A DNA stretch of 36,588 bases, from assembly GCA_026770585.1 (NCBI GenBank), contig MU646325.1:122610-159197 (forward strand), written 5' to 3'. Shown here one piece after another: positions 1-35,528 of this stretch. Each line of letters opens with the position of its first letter. Positions within the stretch are counted from its first letter, which is position 1. Both the position numbers and the translations under genes were made by a program. The stretch comes from Baffinella frigidus (lineage: Eukaryota > Cryptophyceae > Cryptomonadales > Baffinellaceae). Below the pieces are notes generated by a model, which worked only from the letters and a program-made list of their open reading frames with translations, was not told the origin of the DNA and ran no database searches.

Positions 1-3000
1 TCCGCGCCCCCCCAGCCCCCCGCCCCCCGCGTGCCGTCAACCCTCCCATCCCCCCCAACTCCGGGCGGGTGCTGTGCGTCGGAGGAGGGTGTTAGGGTTT
101 GGGGTTTGGGGTTGGGGGTGTGGGGTTTGGGGTATGGGGTTTAGGGTTCAGGGGTTAGGGTTTAGGGTTTGGGGTTTAGGGTTTAGGGTTTGGGGTTCAG
201 GGTTTAGGGTTTAGGGTTCAGAGTTTAGGGTTTAGGGTTCAGGGTTTAGGGTTTAGGGTTTAGGGTTGAGGGTTTATTGGGAGGGTTAGGGTTTAGGGCT
301 GAGGGTTCAGGGAGGGGTTTAAGGTTTAGGGTTTAGTTTTAAGGGTTTAGGATTTATCAGGTGGGTGGAGGGGGTGAGGGTTTACCTGTGCGTCGGAGGG
401 GGGTTTAGGGTTTAGGGTTTGGGGTTTTAAGGTATGGGGTAAGGGGTGTAGGGTCCAGGGGGGGGTTAGTGTTGAACTGTCCCGGGAGATCTCTCTCGCG
501 GACCGCGACTTGCAGAGCTTCGACTTTCTCCATGAGGAGCACCGACGTTTGCGCAGGGGTGTGGTAACCGGTGTTACCACACCCCGGAGTGTGGTAACAC
601 ATCGAAAGGTCTCCGCTCTGTTCTGCGAGTTGGGTCCACACAGGAGTGTGGTAACCGACTATTCACAAGGTAGCATGCTGGGTTCGCGGTACAAATGCGT
701 CAACTTTGGGCGTATGGGGTAGGGGTTAGGGTTGACCTGTCCCGGGAGGTCTTTCTCGCGCACCGCGACTTCCAGAGCTTGGACTTTCTCCATAAGTTGT
801 TCCTCACGGCCCTGCCGGTCACGCAGGCTTTCTTGCGACCTGCGCGGGTTTAGGGTGTAGGGTTTAGGGTTTTGGGAAAGGGGTTAGCAGGGTTACTACG
901 GGTGCCACCAAATCGTCTGTTCCTGCGACCTGCGGAAGCACCCACGGACGAGCGTAGCGTTCAGCTGGAGAAACAGAGTCTTTCTTTGACAAGTGTTCGG
1001 CGACTTCGAGGGCTTGGACTTTCTCTATGAGTTGTTCCGCACGGCCCTGTCGGTCACGCAGGCTTTCTTGCGACCTGCGAACGAGCCTAGCGTTGAGCCG
1101 ACGAAACAGCGTCTTTCTGTTATTTGTACCACGGATCGGCCACTTTGGGGGATAAATCATAGAACCCCGCTCCAATTCGCCGAAAGTCAAATAGATGAGG
1201 CTCGGTGCGGCCTTGCCGGTCACGCATGCTTTCTTGCGACCTGCGCGGTTTGATGGTGTAGGGTTTAGGGAAAGGGGTTAGCAGGGTTACTATGGGTGCC
1301 TGCCATCTTCGAAAAGAAGAAAGGGGTTAGCCTGCCACCTGCGAAACCAGGGCGAAGGATCTTAGCGTTTCGCTGGCGAAATAGAGTCTTTCTAGTGTTT
1401 GTACCACGCATCGGCCACTTTGGGGAGAGAGATCACGGAAAGCGGTAGACCCACGGGTTCATGGGCTAGGGGGTTCGGGGATTAGAGTTTATGGTGTAGT
1501 GTCCTGCGCCACCGCAGATCGGTATTTGAGAAGAACGCGTGTGTGTCGGGGACGGAAACGTGGTGTGTGTGTGTGAACAGCGACCAGTGCCAGGCTTCGA
1601 CGCGCTTCACAGATATCAACTAGCCCTCCGAAGTGGACCAACTCCCGATTTCACCTTTCTCAATTGCCGCCTGGTAAGACTCGAAATCGAGGCTAATGGC
1701 TCAAAAGCCCGCCTGAAACCCTGAAAGCCAGATTCACGAGTTGGTCCACTTCGGAGGGCTGGTGGGTAGGAGCACCGTTTGGACTTCGATGAAACAATGC
1801 CCACCGCTGACGATTCTGGCAGAAAACCATCAACTTTTGACATCGATGCATGCTTTTCGTGGTCAACCGATGTGAAAACCGCTATGTTTAGGACTAGTCT
1901 CGTCAACTTTTGGCATGGGTTGCACCGTTGGACTTCAAGCATCATTTTGCGGATCTGTTCCTCGGCATGCTCGTACTCCTGCGCAAACGTCCGCGCCTGC
2001 AACACCCCCAAAGTTGACGGGTTCGTACCCAAAGTTGACGGATTTGTCCGATCCAAAGTTGACGGGTTTGTACCGCGAACCCATCACCCACGCCCAAAGT
2101 TGAGGAGTTTGTACCGCGGACCCAGCGTGTCAACTTGTGAATAGTCGGGTACCACTCCTGCGCAAACGTCCGCACCTGCCCCAGATTTGTCCGCTCCAAA
2201 GTTGACGGGTTTGTACCGCGAACCCCGCACCCACGCCCAAAGTTGACGGGTGTGTACTGCGAACCCAGCTTGTCAACCTGTGAATAGTCGGGTACCAACC
2301 CGCCGGCACTCACCCCGCACGCTGCAGGGCACCCATTGAACGATTCTGGTTCAGCCTGCGGGCTTCGGGTCACTGTAGTAGTTTCCGCGTCCGATCGCTG
2401 AAGGAGGGGAAACGCGTTGTGTGCCAGGGACGGAAGGTATCGTAGATGTAACTAGATGAAACGTCCTTTCCTGGTACAACAAAATCACCTGCTTTGTCAA
2501 GCGTCGCATGATTAATTTGCAGGGTTCGGGGTTCAGGGTTCGGAGTTCAGAGTTCAGGGTCCAGGGTTCAGGAGTTAGGACCTGTAGGCGCCAGTAGGCC
2601 TCACCCTTCAGGGTTCAGGGTTCAGGGTTTTGGGTTCCGGGTTCCGAATTTACGGTTCGTGGATGAGGAATATGCACCTGGAGGCGCCAGTAGGCCTCAC
2701 CCTGCTGCAGCTTCTTGATGTCGTGGAATATCTCCTCCTGCTGTTCTGCCGGCACTTCCTCGTCCCCTGTAGGGGTTAGGGTTTGGGGTTCAGGGTGCAG
2801 GGTGTAGGGTGTAGGGTGTAGGGTGTAGGGTGTAGGGTGTAGGGTGTATGGTTTAGGGTGCAGGGTCCTGCTGTTCTGCCGGCACTACCTCGTTCCCTGC
2901 CACGTTCCAAAGATGTATCCATAAATCCGGGTCCAGAATGCAGGGTTTTGAAGGCGCCAGTACGCCTCGCCCTGCTGCAGCTTCTTGATATCGTGGAATA

Positions 3001-13718: not shown

Positions 13719-14113
13719 ATATTCCCCGACAGACCGGATTTGGGGCGCCGAGGGCTCTCCCGTCCGCTTATGTGAGCGCGCAAGTTCCAGTGTCCGCCTA
13801 TGTTGGGAGCTCGAAGAACCTAAAGGACCTAAAGGGCTGCGGAGCCTTTTGACTACTGAGCATCGCTTTTCCGCGGGCGTGTTGTGTGATGAATAAATGT
13901 GTGATGAATCAACTGTCGGAGGCTCTCCCGTCCGCTTGCACCAACCTTGACGGGAGGACGAAATGATCGATTTTGCATTTTAGATGGGCTCACCTGCCCG
14001 CTTTCACCACAATCTTCACGGGAGGACGAAATGTTCGATCTTAGATTTTAGATTTACATGCACCCCGACAGACCCCCCCGGATTTGGGGGGTCTGTTGGG
14101 TTAAATCTTCGTA

Positions 14114-14217
14114 TATCCTTTAAGTGCCCATAGGGTGAATATTCGCCCTAACTCGCCCTAGGCTGGTCCTAGGATGCTACCGTAGGGCGTATGAGCCTAC
14201 TGGGCACTTACGGGATA
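14114..14217. mobile_element. MITE family B, copy 2
   Basis: Termini TATCCTTTAAGTGCCCA and TGGGCACTTACGGGATA are inverted. The core CTACCGTAGGGCGTATGAGC is shared with copies 1 and 3. Confidence 0.75.
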
Positions 14218-14283
14218 AAATCGATCATTTGGTCCTCCCGTGGGGGTGGGTGGTTGCGCGAGCGGACCGGAGAGCCTTTCGAC

Positions 14284-14405
14284 TACAGGTGTACCTCGCT
14301 CATAAGACACCACCTTCCCCTAGGACCCTGCAGTAGGGCTATGCCCAGGGCCCTATGGTGGTCCTAGGGAGGGGGGGGGTTCTTATGAGCGAGGTACCCC
14401 TGTAC
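14284..14405. mobile_element. MITE family A, copy 1
   Basis: Inverted termini TACAGGTGTACCTCGCTCAT and ATGAGCGAGGTACCCCTGTA. The middle carries CCTAGGACC, CTGCAGTAGGG and GGTCCTAGG palindromic blocks. Confidence 0.8.
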
Positions 14406-14667
14406 TGAGCCGCACCTTGTACCCCTGTACTGAGCCGCACCTTTCGGCGGTTGTGGTGTGTGATGAATAAACGGTGGGCATCCAGCCACCGTTGGACGGT
14501 GGCTGGAATCATGATGATGAATGGTGGTGATGAATAAACGATGATGATGAAAAAACGGTGGCCAGCCAGCCTCCTGTAAAAAAATATTTTTGAGTTAGGA
14601 CCACTCTAGAGACGGGGTGTGTCCTTGTTCGCGAGTCACAACTGCACCTACAACCCCTAGCGGTCAC

Positions 14668-14696
14668 TTGCAACACACATGATGTGTGTTGCAAGC
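14668..14696. other. Perfect palindrome with ACACAC/GTGTGT arms
   Basis: CTTGCAACACACATGATGTG followed by TGTTGCAAG: 13-base arms around a short centre. Confidence 0.55.
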
Positions 14697-14699
14697 GTG

Positions 14700-14798
14700 C
14701 ACCTGTGGGTATCTAGGCTCTGAGGGCACATCACGGTAGATTGGCGTCAGACTTCATAACCTTGCATCCGTAGGTGCCCTTAGAACCTAGACACCCAC
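14700..14798. mobile_element. Foldback family G
   Basis: GTGGGTATCTAGGCTCTGAG then GGCAC is inverted as GTGCCCTTAGAACCTAGACA then CCCAC. One arm with the CATAACCTTGCATCCGTAGG motif recurs at 7188-7213, 12296-12330 and 17318-17355. Confidence 0.6.
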
Positions 14799-15884: not shown

Positions 15885-15920
15885 GGTCCGTGGTGGTGGG
15901 TGGTTTGCGAATCTTTCCGC

Positions 15921-15952: not shown

Positions 15953-15979
15953 TGGAGGGGAGCATTGTTGCCAGACTAG

Positions 15980-19259: not shown

Positions 19260-19334
19260 GTGCATGCGCCTGGGGTGACTACGTCAGAGTTCCCCACTCA
19301 GTCAAGAGTCCCCCAACCCACAGCCACTGCACCC

Positions 19335-19690: not shown

Positions 19691-19698
19691 TGGTCGCC

Positions 19699-21337
19699 CT
19701 AGCCCGTCTTGCGCTTGACGCTCCTCTCCTCCTCCACCCCCCCCCCCGCGCCGCCTGCAGCGCGCTTCTTGGAGGCAGCGATGAGGGGAAGGGGCACGAT
19801 CACCACCGTGAGGTCGTCGAGGTACCCGCGCCGGGCGCCTGGGTAGGGGTTTAGCGTTTAGGGTTTAGGGTTTAGGGTTTGTGGTTTGGGTTATGGGGTT
19901 TAGGGGTTGGGGTTTGCGGTTTAGGGTGTGGGAGATAGGGGGAAGGGTTTAGGTCTTAGGGCTTAGGGATGAGGGTTGAGGGTAGGGTTTTTTTAGGGTG
20001 TAGGGTTTAGGGTTCAGGATTCAGGTTTACGGTTCAGCGGTTAGTGTTTAGAGTTTGGGGTTTGAGGGTTAGAACGACAGGCGTGCACTCACGTTACGGA
20101 GGGTTTCGGGTTTAAGGTTCACAGTGTAGGGTTTAGGGATTAGGGGGTACCGCCGGGACACATGGAGCGGAGCTCGGCGGCATGCACTAGGGTTAGGGTG
20201 TAAGGGACGCATCGTGTCTCCCATCATGTGAGAGGCTAATGCAAAGCACGAATCACCAAGGGGTTGAGGGTTACCGCCCGGGCGCATGGAGCGGAGTTCG
20301 GCGACGGGCATGCACTGCTTCCTCGCTGCGATCCGCACCACCTGCCGGCACGACACCCCAGCGCGTCTCAGGACGATGCAGAATGGAAAAGTCGCTTTAC
20401 AGTGTATCTCTCACCTATCGCGGGGTGCCCACGACGTGTCGTGACCCTAAACCCTAAACAAGGTGCACACGACATCGTGTACACCTTGTGAACACATGCT
20501 CCGTGTGCGGACACACACGTTGGGAGGGGCAGGGGAGGGAAGGCGCGTCGTGAGTCCTCAAGTGAGCCTTCACAGACCCCCCCTCTCACATCGGGCCTGT
20601 GCGGCGAGAGTTGAAGAGGGGCGACAGGGGGAGTTTGGGGTTTAGGGTTTCGGGTTTAGTGTTTCGGGCTTAGGGTTTAGGGTTAGGATTTAGGATCTAG
20701 GGGTTAGAGTTTAGGGGTCTAGACCTCGTCGACGAGGCCGGTAGCGATGTTGTCCTTGGTGCCCTTGCCCTCCTTCTCCTTGCCTTTCGCCTTGTCGCCC
20801 TTCGCGCCCTTCGCCGGGACTGCCGCTGTTTGCGTTTGATTTGATTTAGTGTGTGCCATATATACGTATACCAGAGAAAGAACCGAGGCCCCTGCCGCTG
20901 TTTCAGTTTGATTTGAATTATTTTGTGTCCTATACAAGTATAATATAGAAGACAACACGGCTGAGAGTCTCGGGGACTGGGCGACAAGGTGGCCACGAGG
21001 GGGGCACCCAAGTTGGGCGAGGGGGGTACCCAGGTTTGGGAGGGGGGGTCCCGCTCTGCCTCGGCGTCAGCCACAACGCCAGACCGGTCTGGCGTGTGCC
21101 TAGTGTGGTCAGATAGGCGGAGAGGGGTACCCGAGACAACACGCTCATCCTCGGGCTGGGGTTGGCTCCGTAAGGGTCGGAGAAAAGAGCACACGGGAAG
21201 CGTGTCAAGAAGGCGCCGAGGGGGCTTGGCGGGGGGGGGTTTCCCGACGCTGCTTTCTCTCACTCTCTGTTACTCGCTCTCTTTCGCTCTCTCTCTTTCG
21301 CTCTCTCTTTCTCTCTCTCACACACACACTTGCTCTC

Positions 21338-21383
<46 letters not shown>

Positions 21384-23100
21384 CTAGCGTGGTCAAATAG
21401 ACAGGGAGGGTGGGTGTACCCGAGGAAGCCTTCTCAGCCTCGCAGTCTGCGTGACGCATCACCTCCACTGCAACCTGATGTAGGATTTGGGGTTTAGGGT
21501 TGAGCATCCTGCGGCACCGCGCCGTGCTTCCTTACTGCGCGGCTTCTATATACGTATATACACACTAGGACCATTCTGTATACGTATATACGCTCTAGGA
21601 CCTTGTCTGTACATCACTTGCACTGCAACCTGTGGCACGGGGCCACACCGCTTCCCGAAAGGCGCCTGGTCCAATTCGGGGACATGTTGAATCTAAAATA
21701 AAATGGATCCCTATGTGTTCATAGGAGTTGGAAGAGGATTAATCATAGCCCTAAGTGAATTTAATGAGGGCAGAATCCGGTTTGGTAGTCCATTTCCCTT
21801 TTAAGTAAACATGTTCCCGGATGAGGTGAGGTGGTGGGTCACGTGCTCCCAGATGCCCTCGGACGCAACGAGGTCTGCCTCACTCGCGTTGACCGACTAT
21901 TCTCAAGTTGACACGCTGTGGCCGCGGTACAAACCCGGCAACTTTCGAGCGGAAACGAGCCTGGACTCACCAAATCGGTGAGCCCACATAGTCGGAGACA
22001 GAGCTAGGAGGCAGAGCTATGGGCTTGGGGACTCACCGGCTCCACCCCCGACTGAGATAGAGCTAGGCGGCAAATACCTGGTCCTTGGCCATGTGCTCCC
22101 AGATTCCATGGGACGTTCAACCGCGTCCTTCGCGATGTCCATCTCTACTGGTGTTGCAGTGCATCTCTACTGGTGATGTAGTGCAGCTACTAGTGATGTA
22201 GTGCAGCTACTAGTGTTGTAAAAACGCTAGTAGCGTTGTAAAACAGCTACAAGCGTTGTAGCACACCCTAATAGTGTTGTAGCTAGTACCTAATAAGCTA
22301 CTAGTGTTTGAGCTGGTACCTGGATACAGCTACTAGTCTTGTAGTCAGCACCTGCAAAGCTGTACTAGTGTTGTAGCACGTACCTGATCGTTGGTCATGT
22401 GCTCCCAGATTCCATCGGACGCGACCACCACGAACGCGTCCTTAGCGATGTCGATCTCTACCCGCGAGACCTATTTTGCAGGTTAGGGTTTAGATTTTTT
22501 ATTGAGTTTTTTCGATTTTTTCTTTTTTTTTGTTTTAAGCAACTGTTCAACAGTCAAAACCTCGCGCACCAGAAAGGAAACCCTGCGCGCACGAAACCCC
22601 CTTGATCTGTGCCAGTCTGATTCGGTCTCGCCAACCTGGTGAACCCAGGCTCTTTTTCGCGCCAACGTTGACGAGTTTGTACTGCGAACCCAGGATGTCA
22701 ACTTGAGAGAAGTCCGCCTAGCCTGCGGATGCAGAGCTAGGTAGCCGCACTAATCTTGCATGATAACATAACTAGTTCCACTTTTTATGCTATGTTAGGC
22801 ATGTTTTTATTCCAAGATAGCAACATCCAACCAAACACGCCCCACATAACAGCCTGACGATAGCATACACGTGGAACTGATTATGTCATCGTCCGAAATG
22901 AACAAGGACGCACTTTGGGGTTTCAAGTGATAAACGGGAGTGATCGGTTGAACGAGAGAGAGAGAGCGCGCGCGCGAGAGAGAGAAAGAGAGAGAGAGAG
23001 CGCGCGAGAGAGAGAGAAAGAGAGAGAGAGAGAATGAGAACGAGAGAAAGATAGAGGGGGATAAAGAGAGAGAGGGGGGGAGGGAGATAGAGAGCGAGAG

Positions 23101-23145
<45 letters not shown>

Positions 23146-26100
23146 CACCTTGGGCTTCCCGGTGATGTACGGGAGTGATCGGTTGAACGGCCACATCGAG
23201 TACGCCTTGTCCTGCATCAGGGTTTAGGGTTCAGGGTTAAGGGTTCAGGGATGCATGTCCCTGTACATTTGTATTTTCCTGTACAAATTATCTAAGATAG
23301 GTTGTTCACAGGCACTTGTAGGTTTTATGATAGGGCCATGGGTCGCCTCGAGTGGGTGTGGGCGGCATCTTGAGGCAACCGTCCCGTTTGTGTGTACGTG
23401 TGTAGCCTGGTACCAGTGTGCATGCACGTATATGTAGCCTGGTACTATTGTGTGTATACGTAGATGATGTGTGACCTTGAGGTAGCCGTCGCCGAGGGCG
23501 CGGGTGACCATGAGCGTGCCGCCGACGCGCTTGATCGCCTCGCGCCGCATACCCCGCATCTGCGCCAGTTTTGTATTTTAGTTAATTAATCCGTGTAATC
23601 GGGATTGGGGACCTAACTAGGGGGTAGAAAGTCCGACGGAGCTTCCGCGCATCAACGCCTAACAGATCGTCCAACATATTTTTCGAAGGTTCTGATTGTT
23701 TTGTTCGTTCACACACCAACTCCGCATCAGATCCGTTGGACTGACATTGCGTCAGATTCCTTGGAATAACGCTCCGTCAGTTTCCTTGGACCAAAACTGC
23801 ATGGTAACACGCCAACAGCTCCGTGCACGTCCCTACATAGCGCCTATACACCGCCGCACCATGGCGGCAGATTCCTAGCTCCTAGCTCTTCCTGACTTTT
23901 ATTCTGGTTCGCCGTTCAAAGTATTGAAGAATAGAAATCCAGTACAAAAGGGCGAATAAAAATCCTTTAGGACGAGGCAGAATAAAACTGAGGCAGAGCT
24001 AGAGCTCTGTCGCAGTGTCTCTGCCTCAGTGTGATTCAGGAGATCAACAGCAGCTCCCGGGCGAGAGTTTCTGCAGTCCCGGTAAGCTGTTAGCTTTCAG
24101 CAAAGTTGATTGCTTTCATAAAGTTGATCCACTCACTTGGACCACGTTGGGCAAGTTGGGCGAATTCAACTCCGGAAACGGTCATAAAAATCACATTTCT
24201 GGCAACGAAAGTTACTACACAAATGCTTTACTATTACTAGTAAGACCCAATTGTGTAGTAAATTTCGTTACGAGAAAGTAAAAACTTGAATCGTTTCCGC
24301 AGCTGAGAATGGGGCTTACCACTTCCGACTCGTTGTAGCGGATAGCTTCCGGGTCCCCGGAGCGAGCAACCACCTGCAGGGTTAGGGTTTAGGGTTGAGT
24401 GGGGTTAGGGTTGCGGGCTTGCGAAGGAACAGCTGCATGCGAGCCACGCCTCGTGATGAGGTTGAGGTTGTGGGGTTGAGGGTTTGGCTTTCGTGCAGCA
24501 GGTCCTTAGAAAACCTTCAACCCGAACCCCAACCACGTCACCAGGGGGGCATCGTGCGCCGATTGATGTCGTATCGGCACCCATCCAGGAAAGCTCAACA
24601 CGCAGAACACGTCCTTACAAGTTTCCTGGACGGTTGAGGATTTTTTTGCTCGAAAGGTAACCCAGTAAAACACGTGACTTGGGAGGGGCGGTTCCCGTCC
24701 AAACCCCATCCAGGAAAGCTACACGAGGTGAAAAAAGTGACTGAGAAGAGCCGGTGGGCACCTTGGCGCACTCGCCGTCGTGGGAGGTGTTCTGGTCGAC
24801 CGGTTGTCCGACTATTCTCAAGTTGACATGCTGGGTGCGCGGTGCAAATCCGTCAACTTTGCAGCGGAAAAGAGCCTTGGCGTGCGCCCAAATCGACTGA
24901 TTTGGTGAGCCCAAATCGACCAAATTGGTGAGCCCAAAGAATTGAGGCGGAGCTAGACCTTGGCGCATTCGCCGTCGTGGGAGGTGTTCTGGTCGATCGT
25001 CAGCGGGATCCCGGTCACGACCCCCTTCTCCCCCCTGCGCACCTGTAAAAAAGGGGGGTTTTGACGTGTCAAAAAAACACCGTCAAGTGCTGGGGAAGGG
25101 GAGAAGACCTCCCTCGAGCGCTGCTTTCAAGGTGGTGAGTTGGGGTTTGGGGTTTGGGGTTTGGGGTTTAGGTTCCATGGTTGAGGGTTTGGGGTTCGGG
25201 GTTTAGGTTCCATGGTTGAGGGTTTGGGGTTCAAGGTCGAGGGTTTAAGGTTTCGGGTTTCGGGTTTCGGGTGTCGGAATTTGGGTTTCGGGTTTCAGGT
25301 TTCGGGTTTCGGGTTTCGCAATTGGGGTTTCAGGTTTCATTTTTCGGTTTTCGGGTTTCAGGTTTCGGTTTTCGGGCTTCGGGTTCGTTTGGGGTTTCGG
25401 GTTCCGGGTTTCGGGTTTAGGGTTCAGGGGTTCCCTTAGTCGGGTCGACTGACACTAGGGGTTTAGGGTTGAGGGGGGGCACAAGGAACGCGCGAGAGTC
25501 TCCGACGATGGCTGAGTAGAGTGAGGAGGCTGAGCTAGCTGCCCAGACCCGTCCGGGGTGGTCCACCGTGAAGCGGGTTGGTTTCAATTGAAAACGCCAA
25601 CACGAGCGGTGTTTGAGGATATGGGGGGAGGGGAGAGGGGTTGGGGAGTAGGGTGTAGGGTTGCTGGATCGGTGGTTTGCGACGATGGGAACAGAACACG
25701 CAACGTAAGACTCGAGAGTAATGAAGAAAAATAGGAAGGTTAATAGGAAGTTTTTTGGGGGGGGGGGGTACGAGGATCGCCCGGGAGTCGCCAACGATGG
25801 CTGAGTAGAGCGATCCCCCCTCGAGGAGGCAGAGCAGCGCGCATGACCCGCAGGTGGGGTTCGAGGTCCCCTGCCCCTCGAGAAACCTGCTCCGGGTTTA
25901 GGGCTTGAGAGCTCTGTCTCAGTCTATTTGGGCAGACCAGTCTGGTGAACCCGGGCTCTTTTCCAAACAAACGTTGACGAATTTGTGCCGTAAACCCAGC
26001 GTGTCAACTTAGGAATAGAGCGCATGGCCCGCACGTGGGGTTCGAGGTCCCCTGCCCCTCGAGGAACCTGCCAGGAGGGAGAGTGCGAGTCAGGCCGAGA

Positions 26101-28990
26101 GAGAGAGAGTCGCGTTACACGCGTGTTCATCGCGCTTCTGGTACAGCGCGTGCTGTAACATAAGGTAGGTCGAGTTTCATTCCTAGGCAAGCCAAACGTC
26201 CCAGCCGCGTAAAATTCCCCTGAGTTCATGCATGGTGTATGTGTTGGGTAGAATATGCTAGCTTAGCCTCAACAAAGCTTTACCGTAGTGCCAACCCCAC
26301 CAGTAAGCCACACAGCGGGCTACAAAGTGATTTTCGGCCCATTTCGGGCCGAAATTCCGTTACCTTGTCCATTGGAGCCCCCCTATACCCCTACGGGTTG
26401 CCTACCGTAGGGTCCTAGGTCTTATTGCTTGTGGTTTATTCAAAATCCCTTCGGAGTCCTCTGTGTGGCAGGAAACCGGTGGTTCGAATTGGATCTAGTT
26501 CCATGTGAGATCCTCGCCCTTTCGGGGCCTGTACCGTCTCGTCTGTCCACAACCTGACATTCGTATTCCTATCTGCACTCTTTCCACGACATTGTGAGCC
26601 CTCTCTGGATCCTTTCCACACCATTCCGAGCCCTCTCCGGACGCTTTCCACAACATCGTGAGCCCTCTGTGGACTCTTTCCACGACACTGTGAGCCCTCT
26701 CTGGACTCTTGCCACAACATTGTGCGCCCTCCCTGGTCTGTTTCCACGACATCGTGAGCCCTATCTGGACTCTTTCCACGTCATTGTTATCCCTCTCTCG
26801 ACTCTTTCCATGACATTGGGAGCTCTCTCTGGGCGCTTTCCACAACATTGCGAGCCCTATCTGGTCTATTTCCACAACATCGTGAGCCCTCTCTGGGCTC
26901 TTTCCACGGCATTGTGAGCCCTCTCTGGACTCTGTCCACAACATTGTGAGCCCTCTCTAGACTCTGGACACGACATTGTGAGACCTCTCTGAAGTATTTA
27001 CATGCCATTGTGAGCCCTCTTTGGACGCCTTCCACAACATCGCGAGCCCTCTCTGGACTCTTTCCACAACACTGTGAGCATTCTCTGGACTCTTTAAACG
27101 ACATTGTGAGCACTCTTTGGACTCTTTTGACAACATTATGAGCCCTACCTGGTCTGTTTCCACGACATCGTGAGCCCTATCTGGACTCTTTCCACGATAA
27201 TGTGAGCCCTCCCTGGTCCGAAAAGGGGCCTGTACCGTCTGTCGACAGCCTGAAACGTCTCCTTCATCGCCTTCTTGTTCTCAGCAGTCCTCTCCTTCCT
27301 CCCCTTGTCCTCCCCCTTCTCACCCGCCTGCCCCCCCGCCCCCCCCGCCCCCGCCCCCCCCGCAGAAAAGAACATCTCCTCGAGACCATCCATCTTAGCC
27401 TGGGTCCCGGCAGGGGGGGTGTAGCGCGCTGCGAACTCCGCTGCCACCTCCCTCGCGCTGCCGGGCGGGGTTTGGGGCTTCAGGTTTGGGGGTTGGGTTT
27501 AGGGTTTAGGGTTCAGGGTTCAAGGTTCAGGGTTTAGGGTTCAGGGTTTAGGGTTTAGGGTTCAGGGTTTAGGGTTTAGGGAACAGGGTGTGGGGGTTCG
27601 GGTTTAGGGTGCAAGTGCGCCGGCTTCCCGACACCGGACCTAATTATCGAAGAAGCGGCGTGTTAGGAACTGGAAGCAAGCTGATATACGTTTTTTTACC
27701 AGTATGTTTTACTCTTGTACCACGGTCTGGCAATTTGTACCGGGCTACATCCGAGTTGTAGCAGGATTAGCCAGGGGTACTCCTCGAAGCGAGATGCAGG
27801 ATAAGCTGGCATGTGTTCTTTACAGGAACCCCCCAGCAGGATAGCTGGCGCCCGTCAGCTCGCACACGCCCACCAACTCGGCTGATTCGCGCCCCTTGAT
27901 TCGTACCGCGCTAGCCCAAAAGCCCGCCGGAACCAGGTGCGCTCCAGTACTTATCAAGGGACCACCAACCCTCAACGGAGGAGCAAATCGTCGACGTTAA
28001 GATCTTAGATTTACCCGGCCAGCCAGTCGAATTCGATTGTCTGGCCGAAGGTAATAGCTGCAAAAAAATGTCTATTTTCTCCGACCGTGGGGGCCACTCA
28101 GCGGGCTACGAAGGGATTTTCGGGCAGGAAATGCCCGAATTCCCGCTACCTTATTTGTAGGAACCCCCCTATGTCCCTACGGGTTGCCTACCGTAGGGCC
28201 ATAAGTCTTATCGATCGGGGTTATTCAAAATCCCTTCGAAGTCCGCTGTGTGGTTGGTGGGGCCCGAGAAAGACCTCGTTTGCAGCTCAGGCAGGCGCGC
28301 GTACCTGAAAGCAGCGCACTCGCGGCCCCCGTGCCCGTCAAACACCCCGAACAACCGCTGCTTTGTGTCAACGAAGAACCGGTCCTCGTTGTTCGCGTTG
28401 GAGGAGAGCGTTGAGGAGTAGGCTACGAAATCCTCGCCCCCCACCTGTAGGGGGGAAAAGTTGTCACACCTGCAGCGGGGGGGGGGGGCAGCTTCCAGGG
28501 CCGTGTGGGAATCGCGTTTCATCGGAGAATGGGCACAGGTGCATGTGCGGCGTGGATGTGCATGGCAAGCCGGGCGGGAATGCGATGGCGTCGGCCGCAC
28601 CTCGTCGTTGGCCTGACGGAAAGGATCGCCGTTGTCAGCGCCCCCTTCCTCCTCTTCTGAGCTTTCTTCGCTCTCTTCCGACGATTCCTCATCGTCGCTA
28701 CCCGATGCACCCGCGGCAAAGTCACCATCCTCAGACTCCTCGTCCTCCTCGTCCTCCGCATCTTCCTTGTCGCCTCCGGCCCCTTTCCCACTGCCCTCAG
28801 ACACGAAGCTGATCGCCCGACCACCTTTCCCCGCCTTCCCCTTGCCCTTCTTCTCACCACTCGTACCGTCCACAGGCTCCGGAGCAAACCCCTTCCTCAC
28901 CTTCACGTCCTTCCGCCACGTCCCATCCTCCCGCTGCGTCCCTTTGGTGAATGCAGGATCTCCCGCCAAAGCCTCCATCACGTCAGCCAT
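19699..28990 (-). CDS. PP2C-family Ser/Thr protein phosphatase with N-terminal PYM-like motif
   Basis: Thirteen minus-strand exons, in coding order: 28990-28601, 28444-28305, 27457-27236, 25886-25772, 25042-24959, 24373-24320, 23559-23476, 23211-23149, 22470-22384, 21474-21420, 20825-20725, 20341-20275, 19838-19699 (TAG at 19701). All splice phases agree, giving about 533 aa. Exon 1 holds a Mago-binding (WIBG/PYM) signature at residues 18-38 (TQREDGTWRKDVKVRKGFAPE), then Gly/Lys-rich sequence and an acidic Ser/Glu tract. PP2C motifs follow in order: NNEDRFFVD, LFGVFDGHGG (metal-binding Asp), TSNPTCGS, SLYSAIVGDSRA, LTIDQN, VTRALGDGYLK, VVVASDGIWEHMTNDQ and DDLTVVIVPL. The last motif is usually DN rather than DD. 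The metal-binding aspartates are present, so the enzyme is probably an active Mg/Mn-dependent phosphatase. A GEKGEDKGRK-type lysine-rich insert sits in exon 3, and the C-terminus is basic (KRKTG). It is divergent from the Rtf2 gene. Confidence 0.92.
19846..20135 (-). repeat. Telomere-like repeats in the last intron of the phosphatase gene
   Basis: GTTTAGGG variants on the plus strand; the gene's sense strand reads CCCTAAACGCTAAACCCC and then ACCCAG at the acceptor of the last exon (19838). A decayed copy of the end of exon 12 sits at 20146-20187. Confidence 0.85.
20459..20488. other. Near-perfect 30-bp palindrome in a phosphatase intron
   Basis: CAAGGTGCACACGA followed by CATCGTGTACACCTTG forms a hairpin with one mismatch, between exon 12 and exon 11. 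Confidence 0.5.
21245..21390. repeat. (CT)n microsatellite in a phosphatase intron
   Basis: CT-rich tract flanked by two copies of the exon 10 3' edge plus the start of the intron (21100-21155 and 21385-21440). Confidence 0.9.
21888..22072 (+). repeat. Dispersed repeat between copies of phosphatase exon 9
   Basis: GACCGACTATTCTCAAGTTG through GAGACAGAGCTAG, with a second partial end (ACTGAGATAGAGCTAGG). Decayed copies of exon 9 (GTGCTCCCAGAT) lie on each side at 21840 and 22092. Confidence 0.75.
22150..22382. repeat. CTACTAGTGTTGTAG minisatellite
   Basis: About 15-16-bp units (GCTACTAGTGTTGTAG and variants) repeated over 230 bp, directly between a decayed copy of phosphatase exon 9 (22080-22143) and the intact exon 9 (22384-22470). 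Confidence 0.85.
22608..22742 (-). repeat. Dispersed repeat, reverse copy
   Basis: CAGTCTGATTCGGTCTCGCC then GGTGAACCCAGGCTCTTTTT, GTTGACGAGTTTGTACTGCG and GTCAACTTGAGAGAAGTCC. Confidence 0.75.
22950..23146. repeat. (GA)n microsatellite at a phosphatase donor site
   Basis: GA-rich on the plus strand, so CT-rich in the gene's sense. It begins right after the exon 8 donor (AAG|GTGCCT, exon end 23149) and ends at a decayed copy of the same exon end at 22908-22955. Confidence 0.9.
24196..24277. mobile_element. Foldback family F, copy 2
   Basis: GCAACGAAAGTTACTACACA and TGTGTAGTAAATTTCGTTAC are inverted. Same interior motif (ATTACTAGT) as the copy at 11948, in a phosphatase intron. Confidence 0.7.
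24805..24958 (+). repeat. Dispersed repeat, best copy, forming a splice donor
   Basis: TCCGACTATTCTCAAGTTGA at the left, then GGTGCAAATCCGTCAACTTT, AGCGGAAAAGAGCC, GGTGAGCCCAAATCGACC, ending GAGGCGGAGCTAGAC. In the sense of the phosphatase gene, its end is the donor GTCTAGCTCCGCCTC of exon 5. A copy of exon 5's 3' part (24757-24800) lies on its other side. No protein is encoded. Length and position recall introner elements. Confidence 0.8.
25138..25440 (-). repeat. Telomere-like GGGTTTCGGG/GGGTTTGGGG array in a phosphatase intron
   Basis: Mixed GGGTTTGGGG then GGGTTTCGGG units between exon 4 and exon 5. Open reading frames through it (GFRVSGFGF-like peptides) come from the repeat and are not coding. 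Confidence 0.85.
25905..26014 (-). repeat. Dispersed repeat between copies of phosphatase exon 4
   Basis: GAGCTCTGTCTCAGTCTATT then GGTGAACCCGGGCTCTTTTC and CAGCGTGTCAACTTAGGAAT. The same 55-bp exon-4 fragment stands on both sides (25834-25888 intact exon, 26021-26074 copy). Confidence 0.8.
26308..26468. mobile_element. MITE family C, copy in a phosphatase intron
   Basis: Inverted termini CCACACAGCGGGCTACAAAG and CTTCGGAGTCCTCTGTGTGG. Inner hairpin TTTCGGCCC...GGGCCGAAA and core CTACGGGTTGCCTACCGTAG. Confidence 0.8.
26572..27215. repeat. 30-bp minisatellite in the third phosphatase intron
   Basis: About 21 units of a 30-bp sequence containing CATTGTGAGCCCTCTCTGG and TCTTTCCACGA. Because 30 is divisible by three, it leaves open frames on both strands that are not genes. 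Copies of the end of exon 3 flank it (26523-26560 and 27225-27262). Confidence 0.9.
27470..27610 (-). repeat. Telomere-like array next to the exon 3 acceptor of the phosphatase gene
   Basis: GGGTTTAGGGTTCAGGG units on the plus strand lie just upstream (sense) of exon 3 (start 27457). Confidence 0.85.
28094..28253. mobile_element. MITE family C, copy in phosphatase intron 2
   Basis: 27-bp terminal inverted repeats (CCACTCAGCGGGCTACGAAG at the left, CTTCGAAGTCCGCTGTGTGG at the right) with three mismatches. Inner arms TTTCGGGCA and TGCCCGAAT; same CTACGGGTTGCCTACCGTAG core. Confidence 0.85.
28601..28990 (-). CDS. Exon 1 of the phosphatase gene: PYM-like domain and acidic tract
   Basis: This 130-codon exon starts MADVMEALAGDPAFTKGTQR and ends DPFRQANDE at a GT donor (28600). 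The core TQREDGTWRKDVKVRKGF matches the PYM/WIBG consensus T-x-R-x-D-G-T-W-R-K-x-x-x-V-[KR]-x-G-[FY], which in animal and plant PYM binds the Mago-Y14 heterodimer of the exon junction complex. Residues about 76-118 are mostly Glu, Asp, Ser and Gly, a likely disordered CK2-type phosphorylation region. The exon ends in phase 0 and exon 2 begins in phase 0 (VGGEDFVAYSS), so the fusion reads through without a break. The alternative is that exon 1 belongs to a separate short transcript. Confidence 0.85.
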
Positions 28991-29356
28991 TGAAGTACTA
29001 CTTTAATCCCCCTTCCCGCTTCTTGCTCCCACCAAACCCGAACAGCCCCTTCGCGAGACCGAGAAAATTTCCTAACGCGGCGACGTGGTAGCACCTGTTA
29101 CTCCTCAAACCAGTACTCAGCAGAGATACGACGCCCGCGCGAGCGTGTTTTTCTTCTGTAGGCGCCCGGAGGCTAAAACGTCTAAAACTCTAAAGTGTAT
29201 TTTTAATTTTGCCGAGCATCGTTCACTTTTGGAGAGAATGCAAGGGAAATAGTTGACTTTGATTTTAGATGGCTGCCCCAGAAAAGGCGCGGTTACATGG
29301 ATTGGAGGTTTAGCCCTCTTCCGTTTTTACAATACATGTAATTTCAGCTGAGCGCG
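28991..29356. promoter_or_regulatory. Divergent promoter region between phosphatase and Rtf2 genes
   Basis: 366 bp separate the two start codons, which point away from each other, so both promoters and 5' leaders must lie here or overlap. The segment at 29180-29290 is A/T-richer than its surroundings (for example GTATTTTTAATTTTG near 29196). No clear TATA box, initiator or palindrome was recognised. Telomere-like and microsatellite DNA, common in the introns on both sides, is absent here. Confidence 0.5.
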
Positions 29357-32300
29357 ATGCAGATTTTCGTCGTGCAGGCTTCGGGGCACACCGCCACGCT
29401 CGACTGCAGGTGCGCCGTGATCGCGCTGGGCAGATATTCTGGCGCGCACGCGATGTGTGCAGCTGCGCCTCGCTCTCCCGCTGCGTGTGCAGAGCAACGA
29501 CAAGTTTGTTGATTCAGAGCAAATCGCCCTCATCAACGGCGCGGCAAGATTGGTCTGACGAGACTGGGTGGGTGTTGCGCGCAGGGAGGGCGATGGCGTC
29601 GATGGTCTGCTTCATCAGCTCGAAAGCGCGCGCGGTGCGCGCGAGTGGGAGGTGGAGGATGAGAGCGAGCGGAGCAGGTTAGTGTTTGGAGGGTTCCAGC
29701 TGCGGGAGGATGACAAGCGCAGCCTCGAGGAGCTCGGCTTGAAGGAGGGGAGCACTGTCACGGAGCTTCTTTCGGTTCAAGGCGGGGGCGGAGACGGTGG
29801 GACGAAAGCGATCCAGCGGAAATACTTGCAGTCGGTACTCCCATCCTCCCGACCATGCGCGTTAGCCTTCCCGCAACGTTGCCGAAACCCCGAGGATGGG
29901 CGCCAGCAGGATGACGTCCGAGCTCCCGAACAGGTCCAGCTGAAGAAGGTGGATGTGAAGCGCGACATGGAGGAGGAGCTGCGCACCAAGGTCCGCGTTT
30001 GGTCGGGTAGATTCCGGGGTAGATTTGGCAGTTGGTTCAGTCTTGGTGGTACGCGCGTCAAGGTGAGGGAAGGCAACTGCGCTTGGTTCAGAGAGGCAGA
30101 AACACACTGCCTCCCTGTTTCCGCAGCGGTGTGGCCTGCACCAAGGTCCTCCTTTGGTCGGGTAGATTCGGGCGTCTCTGGGGTTGCGCGGGTTTGGCGG
30201 GGCGGGATGCAACACCGCACTCTCACGCTCGATGATGCACCCTATAGGGTCCTGGTTCTCTCGCGAAGCTTCACTGTTTTCGTAGCAGTGCAGCCTTTTT
30301 TTTATAGACACGCCACCGACCAACCAACCGTATGAAACACGCTGAACCCTGCGCCCTCCTCTCTATCTCTCCCTCTGTCTCTCGCTCTCTCGCTCGCTCT
30401 CGCTCGCTTTCTCTTCCTCAGTCAATCTCACACACCCAGCGCTCCCGATTCCAATGGCACACCTGTGCGGTGTCAGGCAAGGGGGCCCCTCGATCCCCTC
30501 CCCCCCAACCCTCTACCGAAACGCTGAACCCCGCGCCCTCCTCACGCCGCCCTCGCTCGGACAATCACACGACAGAGTTTCTCACCCCGCGCTGCCGATT
30601 TCGGCGCGTGCTCTCTCTCTCTCTCTCTCTCTCGTTCTCTCTTTCTCTCGCTCTCGCTCGCCCTCTGTCTCACCTCGCCCTCCTCACCCCACCAGTGGCA
30701 CAACTGTGCGGTGTCGGGAAAGCCGCTGGTGGCGCCCATCGTCGCGTGCGAGATGGGCTTCATCTTCATCAAGGTGCCCCCCCCCCTCTCTTTCCCATCC
30801 TCTCTCCCCCACGCCCCCCAGGGCCTGAGAACCCTCCCTCTACCCCGTGCAAAGACGCTCGCTCCCTGCGCCCTGTGAAGAGTGGTAGGAGAGTAGGGAG
30901 TGTCTTCCCCCGACCGCCTTGTTCAAAGACATCAACTAAATGTGTTTCATGAGGAGCCCAGATTAACTGAGGCAGCGCTAGGTTTTCGGTGCCTGCCCTC
31001 TGCGGCCATCCGCGGCCTCGTCCCCATAAACCATAGTGTCGAGAGTCTGCAAAAACTGTTTTTTTTCAGTTTGAAAAACGGTGTACGGCAGGCGGAGATT
31101 CTAAAGTCTATCATCTCGACACGTACTTGATGCGGGAATGCGGTCTTGTCAACGCCGGAATTAAGGCTGTTGATCAGCTTCCCCCCGTATGCCTTCGAAC
31201 CCTGAAAATCGGTATTTTTCAGGAGGAGATTCTGAAGTCGATCATCTCGAAGACGCTCCCGGGCGCCTTCTCGCACATCCGGAAGATGAAGGACCTCTTC
31301 GAGCTCAACCTCACGGTTCCGCCCTCTCTCTTCCTTTCTCTCTCTCTGTGTCTATCTCTCGCTCTTGCTCTCGCTCTCGCTCTCGCTCTCGCTCTCGCTC
31401 TCTCGCTCTCTCTCTCTCTCGCTATCTCGCTATCTCGCTCTCTCGCTATCTTTCTCTCTCTGTTCCTCTCACTCGCATTAACCGACTATTCTCGAGTTGA
31501 CATGCTGGGTGTGCGGTACAAATTCGTCAACTTTTGAGCGGAAACTAGCCCGGGGGAAGCAAGTTGGTGAGCCCGAATGGACTGAGACGCTTCCGGGCGC
31601 CTTTTCGGAGGATGAAGGACCTCTTCCACCTCCAACACTCCTCCATTTTGATTGCAACTAAACTACATTTATGGCGCGCCCAATTTTACTCAGGCAGAGC
31701 TAGACATGGCTGAAGCGACGGCTTCCGATTGCAGGAAAACGGCGAGTTCGATAATCAGGAGGCGGTGACGTGGCAAGGCGGCGGCGCCCAGATCGGGACC
31801 AAGGATCGCTATCAGTGCCCCGTCACAGGTCCCCTTCAACCCTTAACCAGAAACCATGAAACATAAAACAATAATAAATAGATAATAAAACATAAACCAT
31901 AAACCATAAGCTTGTTTACTGATAGCATGAACACGCTGTGACGGGGCGCTGATAGCCCCGGCACAGGTCCACACTCGTCCCACAGGATCCCGCACCATAC
32001 ACCATAAAACATCAACCATAAATAGTAAACACTTATACAAAAGCCACACAAGGATCGCTATCTGCCCTGTCACAGGTCTCCTTCAACCCTCAACCATAAA
32101 CCCTAAACCCTAAACTCTCAACCCTAAACTCTCAACCCTAAACCCCAAACCCTAAACCCCCGTGCGTGACTCGCGCCATATGGTGTCTTTGTTGACACAT
32201 GTATGGTGCACCTCCCGTCAACTTCCGCGGCAGTGCAACTTTGCAACACGGTGTGTCTCTGCGTATCCCGGTAGGCCGGAAATAGCCACGCGTTGCATCT

Positions 32301-35300
32301 GATCGCCCCTCCCCCCCCCCCCCCAACCTTCCAGGCCGCAAACAAATGGTTGAAGTTGACGTTGTGTACCCTGGCAGGCCGCCGTTTTGGGGTTAGGGTA
32401 AAACATGGCAAAAGTTGAGCATGTGTACCCCGGCAGGCCGCCCAGCGAACGGGCGCAACAGCTTTGTCGCCCTCCGCCCGTGTGGACACTGCATCTCCGA
32501 CGGCGCTCTCAAGCAGCTCGGGGGGGGGGAGTGCGTCGTGTGCTCCACCCCGTTCGACAAGGTCCCCCCCCCGCCACCCGTAATATGTTTGTCCACACAG
32601 ACTTAACCCCGCCCTCCGGCCGTGCGGACACTGCATTTCGGACGGAGCTCTCAAGCAGCTCGGAGGGGGGGAGTGCGTCGTGTGCTCCACCCCTTTCGAT
32701 AAGGTACCCTATCCCACTGAACACTGTCCCCCTGTGCGGACACTGCATCTCCGACGGGGCTCTCAAGCAGCTCCGGGGGGGGGGGGTGCGTCGTGTGCTC
32801 GACCCCTTTCGACAAGGTTCGCCCGCCATCCTGGACGCTATTTTCCTAAACCCTCACCCCTAGACCCTAAACCCCTAGACACGACCCGCCAACCTGAACC
32901 CCGCACCCCTGAACCCCTGAACCCCGCCACCCTGAAGCCCGCACTCTGCCCGCACCCGCCACCCTGGACCACGCACTCCGCACCCCGCATCCTGAGTCCT
33001 AAACCCCACACCCCGCGCCCTGAACACTGAACACTGAACAGTGAGCACTGGGCACTGAACACTGAACACTACCCTGTGAACACTGAACACTGCACTCTGA
33101 ACCCTGAACCCTGACGTAGTTCATCGCGAGCGTAAGGACGTGGTCTATCACGGGCCTGCCTCGGGAAGAGTGCGCTAAAAGGGGGGGGGGTGCGCTCGAC
33201 TAGAAGAGTGTGAGAGCGCTCAACACCCTTCGCACACCCTTCTCATCGAGCCTTCTCTATTCACTTGCTTGTAATCGAGCGGTGCCTGCTGAGCAGGACA
33301 AGGACATGATTTCGCTGAACCAGACACCCGACAACCTCGTCAAGGCGCGCAAAGCCCTCACGGTCCTCCCCCGCCCCTGAATTTTGGCCCTATTCGATGG
33401 TCTTAGTCAAATTTTGACCCTGGTCACTTTTTGACCACACCGACCAGCGCGAATTGCATCTCTCGTGCGGTGCGCCCTCGTCGACTCGTATACGTCTTTC
33501 CCAGCGAGATGCGTCGGGGAAATGACTAAGCAATGGCGTATATCCCTGGTCCTTCCTAACTGCTGAAACCAACAACGCAGCAGATTTCGCAAATGAGCTA
33601 AGTTGGGATTGGTCGCGTTCGTCCCTCCAGCGCGTGTCTGCCTGGGGAGGGGGCGTGTCTTGTGAGCGAGAGACCCCTGTACTGGGTCCACTCGATTTTT
33701 TTGACACGCACCGCCGTAGGGTGTAGGGTTGTGACTCTTGAACGGTCGGGCAGGATTCGCGGGCAGCGGAAAAGGAAGCACGCGCGGCATCGGCGGCTGA
33801 AGGTTGGCGCCCAACCCTCAACCCTCAACCCTCAACCATGAACACTGAACACTGAACCATGAAATATGAATCACCCTGAACCCTGGACCCTAAACCCATC
33901 CACCCTAAACACCAAACCCTAAACCCTAAACCCTGAACCCTGAATGAACCCTGAACCCTGAACCCTGAACCCTAAAACCTGAACCTAGACCCCTAAACCC
34001 CAAACCCCAAACTCTAAACCCTTAACCCCAAATACGAAACACCACACCCCAAACCCCAAACCCCAAACCCCCCCCAAAAAAAACCAAACCCCAAACCCCA
34101 AACCCCAAACCCCAAACTCCAAACTCCAAACCCCAAACCCCAAATATCCTATATCTCAAACCCCAAACCCTCAAACCAGGCGGGGAGAGCAAGAAACGGA
34201 GCGGGGTCAGCAAGGAGGGGTCAGCAGCCAAAAAGTCTAAACACAAGATCCAGACGCTGATCGGCTAAACCCTAATCCTTAATCCCCAAATCAGAAACCC
34301 TACACCAGGCGGAGAGAGCAAGAAGCGAAGCGGGAATAGCCAGGAAGACTGAGCACATCCAAAAAGGCGAATTTTTCGAAACCCTAATCCTTAACCCCCA
34401 AATCCCTCAGGCGGGGAGAGCAAGAAGCGGAGCGGGATCAGCAAGGAGGAGTCAGCAGCCAAAAAGGCGAAGATCGCAGCTGTTTCATGGCAGGAAATTG
34501 CCCCTAAGATAGCACGCGGATGCAGGCGGGGAGAGCAAGAAGCGAAGATGGATCAGCAACGAGCCTCCGTCAGCAGCCAAGAAGGCTTAACATCCAGTCG
34601 TTAATCCCTAATCTCTAATCTCTAATCCCTAATCCCTAAACCCTAAACTAGGAGGGGAGAGCAAGAAGCGGAGCGGGATCAGCAAGGAGGAGTCAGCAGC
34701 CAAAAAGGCGAAGATCCAGGCGCTGGTCGGCGCTGGCTCCTCGGTACATCTCCCGCCATTGAATACTCGGGAGTTCCCCGCCTGGGAGCGAGATCATGGA
34801 TTGTGGCGAACTTCCGGGGGGGGGTCTCACGGTTGCAGTTCACCACCAGTGGTGAACGAGGCCGTATCCATTCTGCCTTAACTTTCGCAACGTTAATCCT
34901 TGCAAAGCCCAGCTCTCCGTGGTGGTGGTATCTGGTGAATAATTGGTGGTTTCCCCAAATCGTAGCCCCTAACCCCTAACCCCTAACCCCTAACCCCTAG
35001 CCCCTAACCCCAAATCCATAACCCCTCACCCCGAACCCCTAAATAGGTGAACTCGGTAAACGGGGCGCTGGGCAGCACCATCACCAAGTCCAATGGAGTC
35101 AGTGGCAAGCGCAATCATGTTTCATGTGTACCAGGAAATAAAGTTAAGGGAGGGAGCCTCAACTTTAAATTCTGCTGTGTGTCTTGGCATGGTGTCTGCA
35201 GGTCAAGTCGGTGAACGGCGCGCCCTTCCCCCATTTCTGTCATGTGCTGGCAGATGATGCTGGCGACGAAGATGGCGAACACAGATACTTCAGGTCCTTT

Positions 35301-35528
35301 AGGTTCTGTTAACTCCCACCATAGGCGAACACTGGAACTGGTTCTGCAGAAAGGGCATGCTAAGACGAGACGCGCGTGCAGGTGAAATCGGTGAACGGGG
35401 CGCTGAGCAGCAGCATCACCAAGTCCGCGCAGCTTGGCATCGCGGCCCACGCCGCCACGGTACCGATCTTCTTCTCGTCTTCTTTGTTACTCTCGTTACC
35501 GATCCGCGCCAACTCATTCCGCACTTAG
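29357..35528 (+). CDS. RTF2: Rtf2-family protein with N-terminal ubiquitin-like domain
   Basis: Exons: 29357-29409, 29585-29834, 29934-29990, 30696-30773, 31223-31315, 31735-31828, 32437-32561, 33297-33362, 33754-33802, 34652-34743, 35382-35459, with read-through to TAG at 35526 if the last GT is not used. All phases agree, giving about 345 aa to the end of the last exon. Residues 1-85 resemble ubiquitin (MQIFVVQASGHTATLDC; RLVFGGFQLREDDKRSLEEL). The Rtf2 domain follows: GGDGGTKAIQRKYLQ, WHNCAVSGKPLVAPIVACEM, AFSHIRKMKDLFELNLT, DRYQCPVTGRPANGR, RPCGHCISDGALKQ, ECVVCSTPFDK and DMISLNQTPDNL. These carry the Cys/His pattern of the modified RING fold. The tail is Lys/Ser/Ala-rich (GESKKRSGISKEESAAKKAK), like a nuclear localisation region. 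Rtf2 proteins act in replication termination at stalled forks in fission yeast, and plant Rtf2 affects splicing. The true C-terminus is uncertain because the last exons are repeated. Confidence 0.88.
30355..30670 (+). repeat. CT-rich tracts with an exon-start copy between them
   Basis: Two CTCTCG/CTCTCT tracts (30355-30420 and 30610-30670) lie upstream of exon 30696. A decayed copy of that exon's start (TGGCACACCTGTGCGGTGTC) sits at 30455-30474. Confidence 0.85.
31317..31478 (+). repeat. CT/CTCG microsatellite after an Rtf2 exon
   Basis: Begins at the donor of exon 31223-31315 and runs into the dispersed repeat at 31485. A copy of the exon's 3' part follows that repeat. Confidence 0.9.
31485..31592 (+). 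repeat. Dispersed repeat between copies of an Rtf2 exon
   Basis: ACCGACTATTCTCGAGTTGA then GGTACAAATTCGTCAACTTT and TTGGTGAGCCCGAATGGACT. The exon fragment CCGGGCGCCTT...GATGAAGGACCTCTTC occurs before (31258-31300) and after (31590-31630). Confidence 0.8.
32090..32160 (+). repeat. CCCTAAA-type array in an Rtf2 intron
   Basis: ACCCTAAACTCTCAACCC units before a 250-bp stretch leading to exon 32437. A related 31850-31925 tract of AAACCATAAA units precedes it. Confidence 0.8.
32437..32820 (+). repeat. Rtf2 zinc-finger exon in three tandem copies
   Basis: The exon 32437-32561 (GHCISDGALKQLGGGECVVC in its core) is followed by two close copies at about 32610-32702 and 32733-32817. Copy 2 keeps the same peptide and a GT donor (AAG|GTACCC). 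Copy 3 keeps an open frame but changes LGGGEC to LRGGGC and has donor AAG|GTTCGC. Only copy 1 has a clean acceptor (CGGCAG) and the upstream residues GRPANGRNSF expected of Rtf2. The copies could be dead duplicates or mutually exclusive alternatives. Confidence 0.85.
32848..33118 (+). repeat. Degenerate telomere-like CCCTGAAC/CACTGAACA tract
   Basis: AACCCCGCACCCTGAACCC and later GAACACTGAACACTGAACA units fill the intron after the third zinc-finger exon copy. Confidence 0.8.
33808..34175 (+). repeat. Telomere-like array before the Lys/Ser-rich exon copies
   Basis: CCCTCAACCCTCAACC, CCCTGAACCC and CCCCAAACCCCAAACC units, ending TCAAACCAG at the first exon copy. Confidence 0.85.
34175..34743 (+). 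repeat. Five copies of a Lys/Ser-rich Rtf2 exon
   Basis: Copies start near 34180, 34309, 34411, 34526 and 34652, each beginning GGGGAGAGCAAGAAG or a close variant after an AG and encoding GESKKRSGISKEESAAKKAK-like peptide. They are separated by CCCTAATC/CCCTAAA-type filler or short unique spacers. Copy 1 runs into TAA at 34266. Copies 2 and 4 carry changes that break the frame or peptide. The last copy is intact and has a phase-0 GT donor at 34744 that fits the next exon. Confidence 0.8.
34960..35046 (+). repeat. CCCCTAA array abutting an AG
   Basis: AACCCCTAACCCCTAACCCC units ending CCCCTAAATAG directly before the VNSVNGALGS exon copy. Confidence 0.8.
35046..35459 (+). repeat. Three copies of the SVNGALSSSITK exon
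   Basis: Copies at about 35047-35092 (VNSVNGALGSTITKS), 35202-35228 (VKSVNGAP, truncated) and 35382-35459 (VKSVNGALSSSITKSAQLGI and onward), each after an AG. Only the last is full length with a GT donor. Short copies of its 3' edge (GCCCACGMCGCCACGGTACC type) recur downstream at about 35818, 35937, 36028 and 36229. Confidence 0.7.

Follow-up and report, generated by a model that had tools for sequence, protein, structure and literature searches.

We examined a 36.6-kb window of the 382-Mb assembly of the cryptophyte Baffinella frigidus (GCA_026770585.1, contig MU646325.1, positions 122,610 to 159,197), the window being the whole stretch of 36,588 nucleotides. Introns in its genes contain partial copies of the adjoining exon edges, separated from the intact edges by filler DNA. 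Transcript or annotation support was found for two genes of the window only, Rtf2 and a PP2C phosphatase; two further readable genes were taken from elsewhere. Exon models with GT-AG introns were built so that they translate into an MMETSP transcript protein aligning with the Rtf2 exons (P0001) and into the annotated B. frigidus PP2C protein (P0013), with which the phosphatase exons align, at 100% over most of them. Each gene thus has 11 exons and 10 introns in the window. Rtf2 occupies 29357-35459 on the forward strand, its last exon lying beyond the window, with exons at 29357-29409, 29585-29834, 29934-29990, 30696-30773, 31223-31315, 31735-31828, 32437-32561, 33297-33362, 33754-33802, 34652-34743 and 35382-35459. 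The 3' part of PP2C lies on the reverse strand at 19702-27468. Its first exon ends at 27236 (the start at 27468 is an estimate), and is followed by exons at 25886-25772, 25042-24959, 24373-24320, 23559-23476, 23211-23149, 22470-22384, 21474-21420, 20825-20725, 20341-20275 and 19838-19702.

For each exon edge, up to 80 bp of exon and 30 bp of intron were aligned to the rest of the same intron, with tandem repeats masked. In Rtf2 and PP2C, a direct copy within its own intron was detected for 19 of the 40 edges at a score of at least 16, for 18 at a score of at least 18 and for 16 at a score of at least 20, and 14 of the 20 introns held a direct copy of their own exon edge. Random pieces of other introns reached a score of 16 in 7 of 800 cases (0.88%) and never 18, and only one of the 40 edges matched the reverse complement of the same intron (score 19). 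Copying onto the reverse strand was rejected on this count and on its absence from the close pairs of the two genes. Matches were 21-89 bp long. These results bear out the original prediction that exon-edge matches exceed those in control introns, and we conclude that exon-edge copying within introns is real; its wording that nearly every exon is affected was too strong. Fifteen of the 16 pairs that it listed were recovered at or near their places, and the remaining one (11655-11687/11815-11847) fell below the threshold of the pair search. The genome is rich in simple repeats and the assembly has long stretches of N, as chance or low-complexity matches or an assembly artefact would have it. 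Yet tandem repeats were masked, the control counts were low, the copies have diverged from the exons and are flanked by other sequence, and the pattern recurs in a gene on another contig, which makes such an origin scarcely credible.

In PP2C, the donor edge of intron 1 (27253-27225) has a weak copy at 26557-26524 (score 18), and nearly all the space between exon 1 and this copy (649 of 667 bp) is taken up by about 20 copies of a 32-bp minisatellite (26568-27216). The acceptor edge of the same intron (25890-25836) is copied at 26071-26017 over 55 bp with 93% identity, with a filler that contains a piece of a miniature inverted-repeat transposable element (MITE). In intron 2, the pair 25813-25753/25524-25462 (84%) was missing from the original list. 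Intron 3 has the edge 24999-24957, a filler at 24956-24803 consisting of a MITE, and a copy at 24802-24760 (43 bp, 95%), and in intron 6 the edge 23188-23145 and its copy 22953-22910 (84%) are separated by a gap filled entirely with CT microsatellite. The donor edge of intron 7 (22452-22388) has a copy at 22139-22082 and an older one at 21869-21834, with minisatellites of 20-32 bp in the first filler; its acceptor edge (21477-21457) has a short copy at 21632-21612 (score 17). Intron 8 carries a weak donor pair (21442-21390/21153-21106, score 19, 70% identity) and an acceptor pair (20855-20820/20927-20892), and intron 10 the edge 20316-20272 with a copy at 20188-20148 (82%).

In Rtf2, intron 3 has a donor pair (29983-30020/30138-30175) and an acceptor pair (30692-30722/30451-30481), intron 4 an acceptor edge at 31203-31250 copied at 31072-31119 (81%), and intron 5 an edge at 31251-31306 copied at 31585-31632, with CT repeats and a MITE in its filler; CT repeats also occur in intron 3. 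Intron 6 again has both a donor pair (31800-31837/32049-32084) and an acceptor pair (32412-32442/32353-32383), and the acceptor edge of intron 10 (35380-35426) is copied at 35045-35091 (91%). Further copies absent from the original list are two of the end of exon 7 (region 32466-32827), at 32603-32706 and 32738-32827 (92%), and four decayed copies of the start of exon 10 upstream of it (region 34178-34743), at 34178, 34306, 34409 and 34524, of which 34409-34475 is 99% identical. One filler of the latter region, in intron 9, contains a telomere-like array. Between exon 7 and its partial copy at 32603-32706 there are 8 synonymous changes and 1 non-synonymous one, a hint of recent coding use or of a diverged source.

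Copying goes with exon borders. The two supported genes have 25 close direct pairs, every one of which derives from an exon edge, and at the same threshold no pair was exon-interior or inverted; 19 of the 25 join an exon edge to an intron copy (a set that differs from the 19 edges counted above) and 6 lie among the secondary copies of Rtf2 exon 10. When 90-bp windows of intron were searched, 14 of 67 had a direct match elsewhere in the intron, 12 of which were assigned by their coordinates to exon-derived copies or their overrun. The remaining 2 of 67 compare with 19 of 40 exon edges (Fisher p = 3e-8, a value that depends on this manual assignment). The near-absence of border-unrelated pairs argues against a uniform local duplication process, which the original prediction had allowed. 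The copies span the splice junction or closely abut it, and their overrun into the intron ranges from -9 bp to over 30 bp. The idea that copy ends generally accumulate at splice dinucleotides was rejected over 231 pairs, in which neither AG at the start (14) nor GT at the end (13) was outstanding; among copy-start dinucleotides AC stood out (29), and GT less so (21).

Fillers are of several kinds, comprising CT microsatellite, minisatellites, telomere-like arrays and pieces of MITE, and several contain no named repeat. The MITE is dispersed, measures about 139 bp and carries the terminal inverted repeats CTAGCTCYGCCTCA. A full copy is found at L009:5906-6044, five sites lie in the window (24808-24956, 25910-26018, 31482-31589, 21893-22007 and 22620-22714), and the family occurs at at least 40 further places in the genome. 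This abundance, and the fact that the MITE fills the space between the two 43-bp copies of PP2C intron 3, would suit a transposon, either the MITE or an Introner-like element, that makes long target-site duplications. However, only 3 of the 19 fillers in the window contain the MITE (PP2C introns 1 and 3, Rtf2 intron 5). Compared with the full copy, it lacks 28, 18 and 8 bp there, and 6 bp in a Rab gene elsewhere, always on the side of the copy (4 of 4 fillers), with the exon-side end complete or nearly so in 2 of the 4; moreover, 17 of 53 MITE matches have no direct repeat within 400 bp. A single transposon with long target duplications was thus rejected on its mixed fillers, truncated ends and MITEs without direct repeats, and we regard a transposon origin in general as very improbable. 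An Introner was discarded because the fillers differ, the MITE is found in 3 of 19, its ends are truncated, and the copies are 21-89 bp long rather than short target duplications. The claim that the copies follow no single transposon therefore held.

Telomere-like repeats make up some of the fillers only and are C-rich in the sense strand, with AACCC and GGGTT counts of 79 versus 13 in the PP2C introns (19839-27235) and 64 versus 5 in those of Rtf2 (29410-35381). Over all loci, neighbouring arrays were co-oriented (GG 93, CC 41, GC 7, CG 4). Since selection on splicing predicts the same orientation of arrays, orientation is no discriminator for the polarity of telomerase. Strand slippage, proposed earlier as an alternative, probably enlarges some fillers, several of which are tandem arrays; it does not explain the copies that flank a MITE. 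At three places (L028:8517, L028:8996 and 24943 of the window) a MITE end directly adjoins ACCT, which reads on the other strand as the splice donor AGGT.

The pattern extends beyond the window. From each of 20 contigs we took 10 kb at a fixed position; 13 of these stretches were wholly N and one was 96% N, leaving six readable ones (43.7 kb). Close repeats, defined by a gap below 800 bp and counted with several pairs per array, were 120 direct versus 13 inverted in these stretches, 62 versus 7 in the window and 97 versus 38 at 16 loci centred on the MITE. At nine light-harvesting-gene loci (29 kb) close pairs were few (12 direct versus 5 inverted); three of the nine matches, each in a single open frame, extend over most of the domain's 162 positions. 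Medians over all loci were 48 bp for the copy, 186 bp for the gap and 87% for the identity. On contig C1, copies were present at 3 of the 8 edges of a Rab gene, with a best reverse-complement score of 10 (simple repeats unmasked), and the fillers of this gene include a MITE fragment and a CCCTAGA array. The repeat counts and the Rab gene support a pattern that is not confined to the window. Six-frame Pfam scans gave no match for locus L018, and C2H2 fingers together with a piece of DcpS_C for locus L021.

Copies are linked to intron length. Among 25 introns of four genes, a copy was present in 15 of the 17 longer than 400 bp and in 0 of the 8 that are shorter (Fisher p = 4e-5); the exceptions among the long introns measure 760 and 851 bp, the latter having scored 14. 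The original prediction that the process lengthens introns is supported by this result, and its further suggestion that new introns are built is not, as AGGT-type intron gain should leave an arrangement that is seen in none of the 19 copies. Gain by AGGT tandem duplication was rejected because copies of donor edges are internal to the intron, with further intron sequence behind them; within the target of the edge test, the start of the downstream exon did not match the first 30 bp past the donor. The visible process is thus the lengthening of existing introns.

With moderate confidence, we interpret the copies as fossils of an error-prone break repair that forms duplications and inserts filler, its products being tolerated where the splice site stays intact. 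A break at an exon border would have offset nicks or processed ends, and its repair would leave about 20-90 bp around the break at both ends, with unrelated DNA (CT microsatellite, minisatellite, telomere-like repeats or a piece of the dispersed MITE) captured or synthesised between them, presumably through fill-in or templated synthesis and end joining. The product would then run from the exon through its splice site and the filler to a second copy of the exon edge and the rest of the intron. Such an event would survive only where reading frame and splice site are preserved in the exon-side copy; its counterpart, hidden in the intron, would decay, and repeated rounds would lengthen introns from their ends. 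The border bias may then reflect selection, breaks in or near exons being common and only outcomes that preserve the splice site surviving. Direct copies of the target do lie on either side of the inserts, and the inserts are of unrelated kinds; filled-in breaks with inserted DNA, named in the original prediction, remain the best kind of mechanism. Vaughn and Bennetzen reportedly described in 2014, for natural insertions in rice, tandem duplications at double-strand breaks with other DNA inserted between the copies.

Several observations weigh against this interpretation. Uniform breaks with neutral decay should also leave intron-intron pairs, which are nearly absent; a comparable rate of such pairs would be expected, since they should diverge at most about twice as fast, so that more than selection may be needed. 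A uniform break model does not predict the exon-border bias, which calls for an explanation under any mechanism. About half of the copies share only GT or AG plus one or two bases past the junction, the others 9-53 bp of intron, and the overrun fraction is non-uniform (Kolmogorov-Smirnov p = 0.0008, n = 19, hand-read values), which argues against offset nicks at random places. Reverse-complement matches were found in 7 of the 67 intron windows, and some inverted repeats therefore exist in introns. None of the 4 edges had a copy in a second Rab-like gene, whose introns measure 195 and 226 bp, and no empty site was seen in the one assembly. Differences between exon and copy also comprise 34 synonymous and 29 non-synonymous changes, a synonymous lean that exceeds what simple decay of the copy predicts, uniform random change giving 23.5% synonymous.

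The synonymous lean, with 13, 11 and 39 differences at codon positions 1, 2 and 3, and the Rtf2 copy at 32603-32706 are what ordinary tandem exon duplication or coding-constrained alternative exons, combined with fast intron turnover, could produce. We consider this highly unlikely. The copies mostly represent only part of an exon, frameshifting indels occur in 8 of 19 and stops in some, and the copies appear neither in the transcript protein nor in the annotated PP2C protein; intron similarity does not continue past the short overrun, even for the 99% identical copy. The lean may instead be accounted for by synonymous drift of the exon with a GC-to-AT bias in the copy: third positions of main and secondary copies include 36 cases of GC in the exon and AT in the copy, 15 of the reverse and 15 with GC in both. 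A template that had already diverged would account for it as well.

Such a template is the basis of another explanation, abortive gap repair from a diverged allele or homeolog, in which a break in the exon is copied from the other version of the gene, synthesis overruns the exon border and the product is joined to the unrepaired side. The filler would then be a stretch of the other allele's intron, and the copy the remainder of the exon beyond the break. With nothing further assumed, this would explain the restriction of duplication to exon edges, the many copies in which no more than GT or AG is shared past the junction, the truncation of the MITE on the copy side in 4 of 4 fillers while its exon-side end is complete or nearly so in 2 of the 4, and the synonymous lean. 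Nevertheless, it needs strongly differing allelic introns, and a 281-bp search with a PP2C exon matched only the window and copies of the MITE, with no second allele. Overrun and reach into the exon are anticorrelated (Spearman -0.67, n = 19), in part through detection bias, and the lean has the other possible source in exon drift and copy bias. Overall, we judge allele-templated repair rather unlikely. A tentative and likewise rather unlikely possibility is that a process directed at exon borders makes introns grow at their ends, breaks in exons being repaired by synthesis that overruns the splice junction into the other allele's intron or into captured repeats.

If introns do grow in this manner, nearly every long intron would hold a datable ladder of exon-edge fossils, and the process could be the principal origin of intron length, and of a genome six times as large as Guillardia's, with no dedicated transposon or Introner. 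The lengthening of introns is usually put down to transposons or left unexplained. Since a conserved exon stands beside each fossil, events can be counted, dated and assigned to an end of the intron, and a link between error-prone repair, intron length and genome size becomes testable in Baffinella. The published assembly comprises 534.5 Mb with 41% repeats, 6.1 times the genome of Guillardia theta; in the main text of that genome paper the word "intron" occurs zero times (PMC9756366).

The original statement that no described system has this pattern was too strong, as the repair chemistry is known; the scale, the border bias and the link to intron length look new. Tandem duplications are known at breaks with 3' protruding ends, from work on CST/Pol alpha-primase (PMC8355091), and share with the Baffinella copies a short direct duplication (<100 bp) around the break and end joining after fill-in; unlike these, the Baffinella copies mark most of the long introns examined, are tied to exon borders and enclose long filler. 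Repeats flanking introns gained in Daphnia, attributed to staggered-break repair, are likewise direct and flank inserted DNA. There, as described in that account, they are short and surround new introns, whereas the Baffinella copies are longer and sit within introns that already existed, with the exon edge as one member of the pair (PMC3443670). In Lipomyces, duplication at the splice donor with stwintronisation is explained by repair of asymmetric breaks; there the duplications measure 4-7 nt and the introns are nested, compared with filler and tens of bp of exon in Baffinella, where acceptors are affected as well as donors (PMC7138796). Telomerase is described as inserting interstitial telomeric sequences at breaks, a minority with target duplication (PMC2246262); telomere-like DNA is in Baffinella only one of several fillers. 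Introners resemble our case in affecting many introns of an alga and in involving an element with terminal inverted repeats; their families, in the account cited, have target duplications of 3-9 bp or terminal inverted repeats, whereas no single element makes the introns of Baffinella (PMC9860276). A literature search that covered few subscription papers, and most papers by title and opening of the abstract, yielded nothing that we recognised as exon-edge copies with filler in cryptophyte introns.

Similar pairs occur on putative exons of the coiled-coil genes of the window; the extension of the pattern to all four genes, as predicted, stands for Rtf2 and PP2C, the two with transcript or annotation evidence. 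On the forward strand they include 6736-6793/6878-6935 (78%), 10783-10822/11001-11040 (88%) and 12756-12800/12935-12979 (45 bp, 89%). A gene-like region with putative exons at 462-4284, placed on the reverse strand by eye and from the original prediction, has 17 close direct pairs, for example 1975-2000/2154-2179 (26 bp, 96%) and 2679-2767/2949-3037. A protein search for the coiled-coil gene returned only the open reading frame of the window itself and a 61% relative (P0073) of the exon at 6420-6514. This relative continues beyond the donor into residues like LNPQPKTSPLNPTPE, a translation of telomere-like DNA, which suggests that the relative, too, carries telomere-like DNA where this intron begins. 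Finally, a 12-bp tandem repeat, ATGGCATTCCGT, forms two arrays (35541-35578 and 35767-35804) beyond the last Rtf2 exon of the window.

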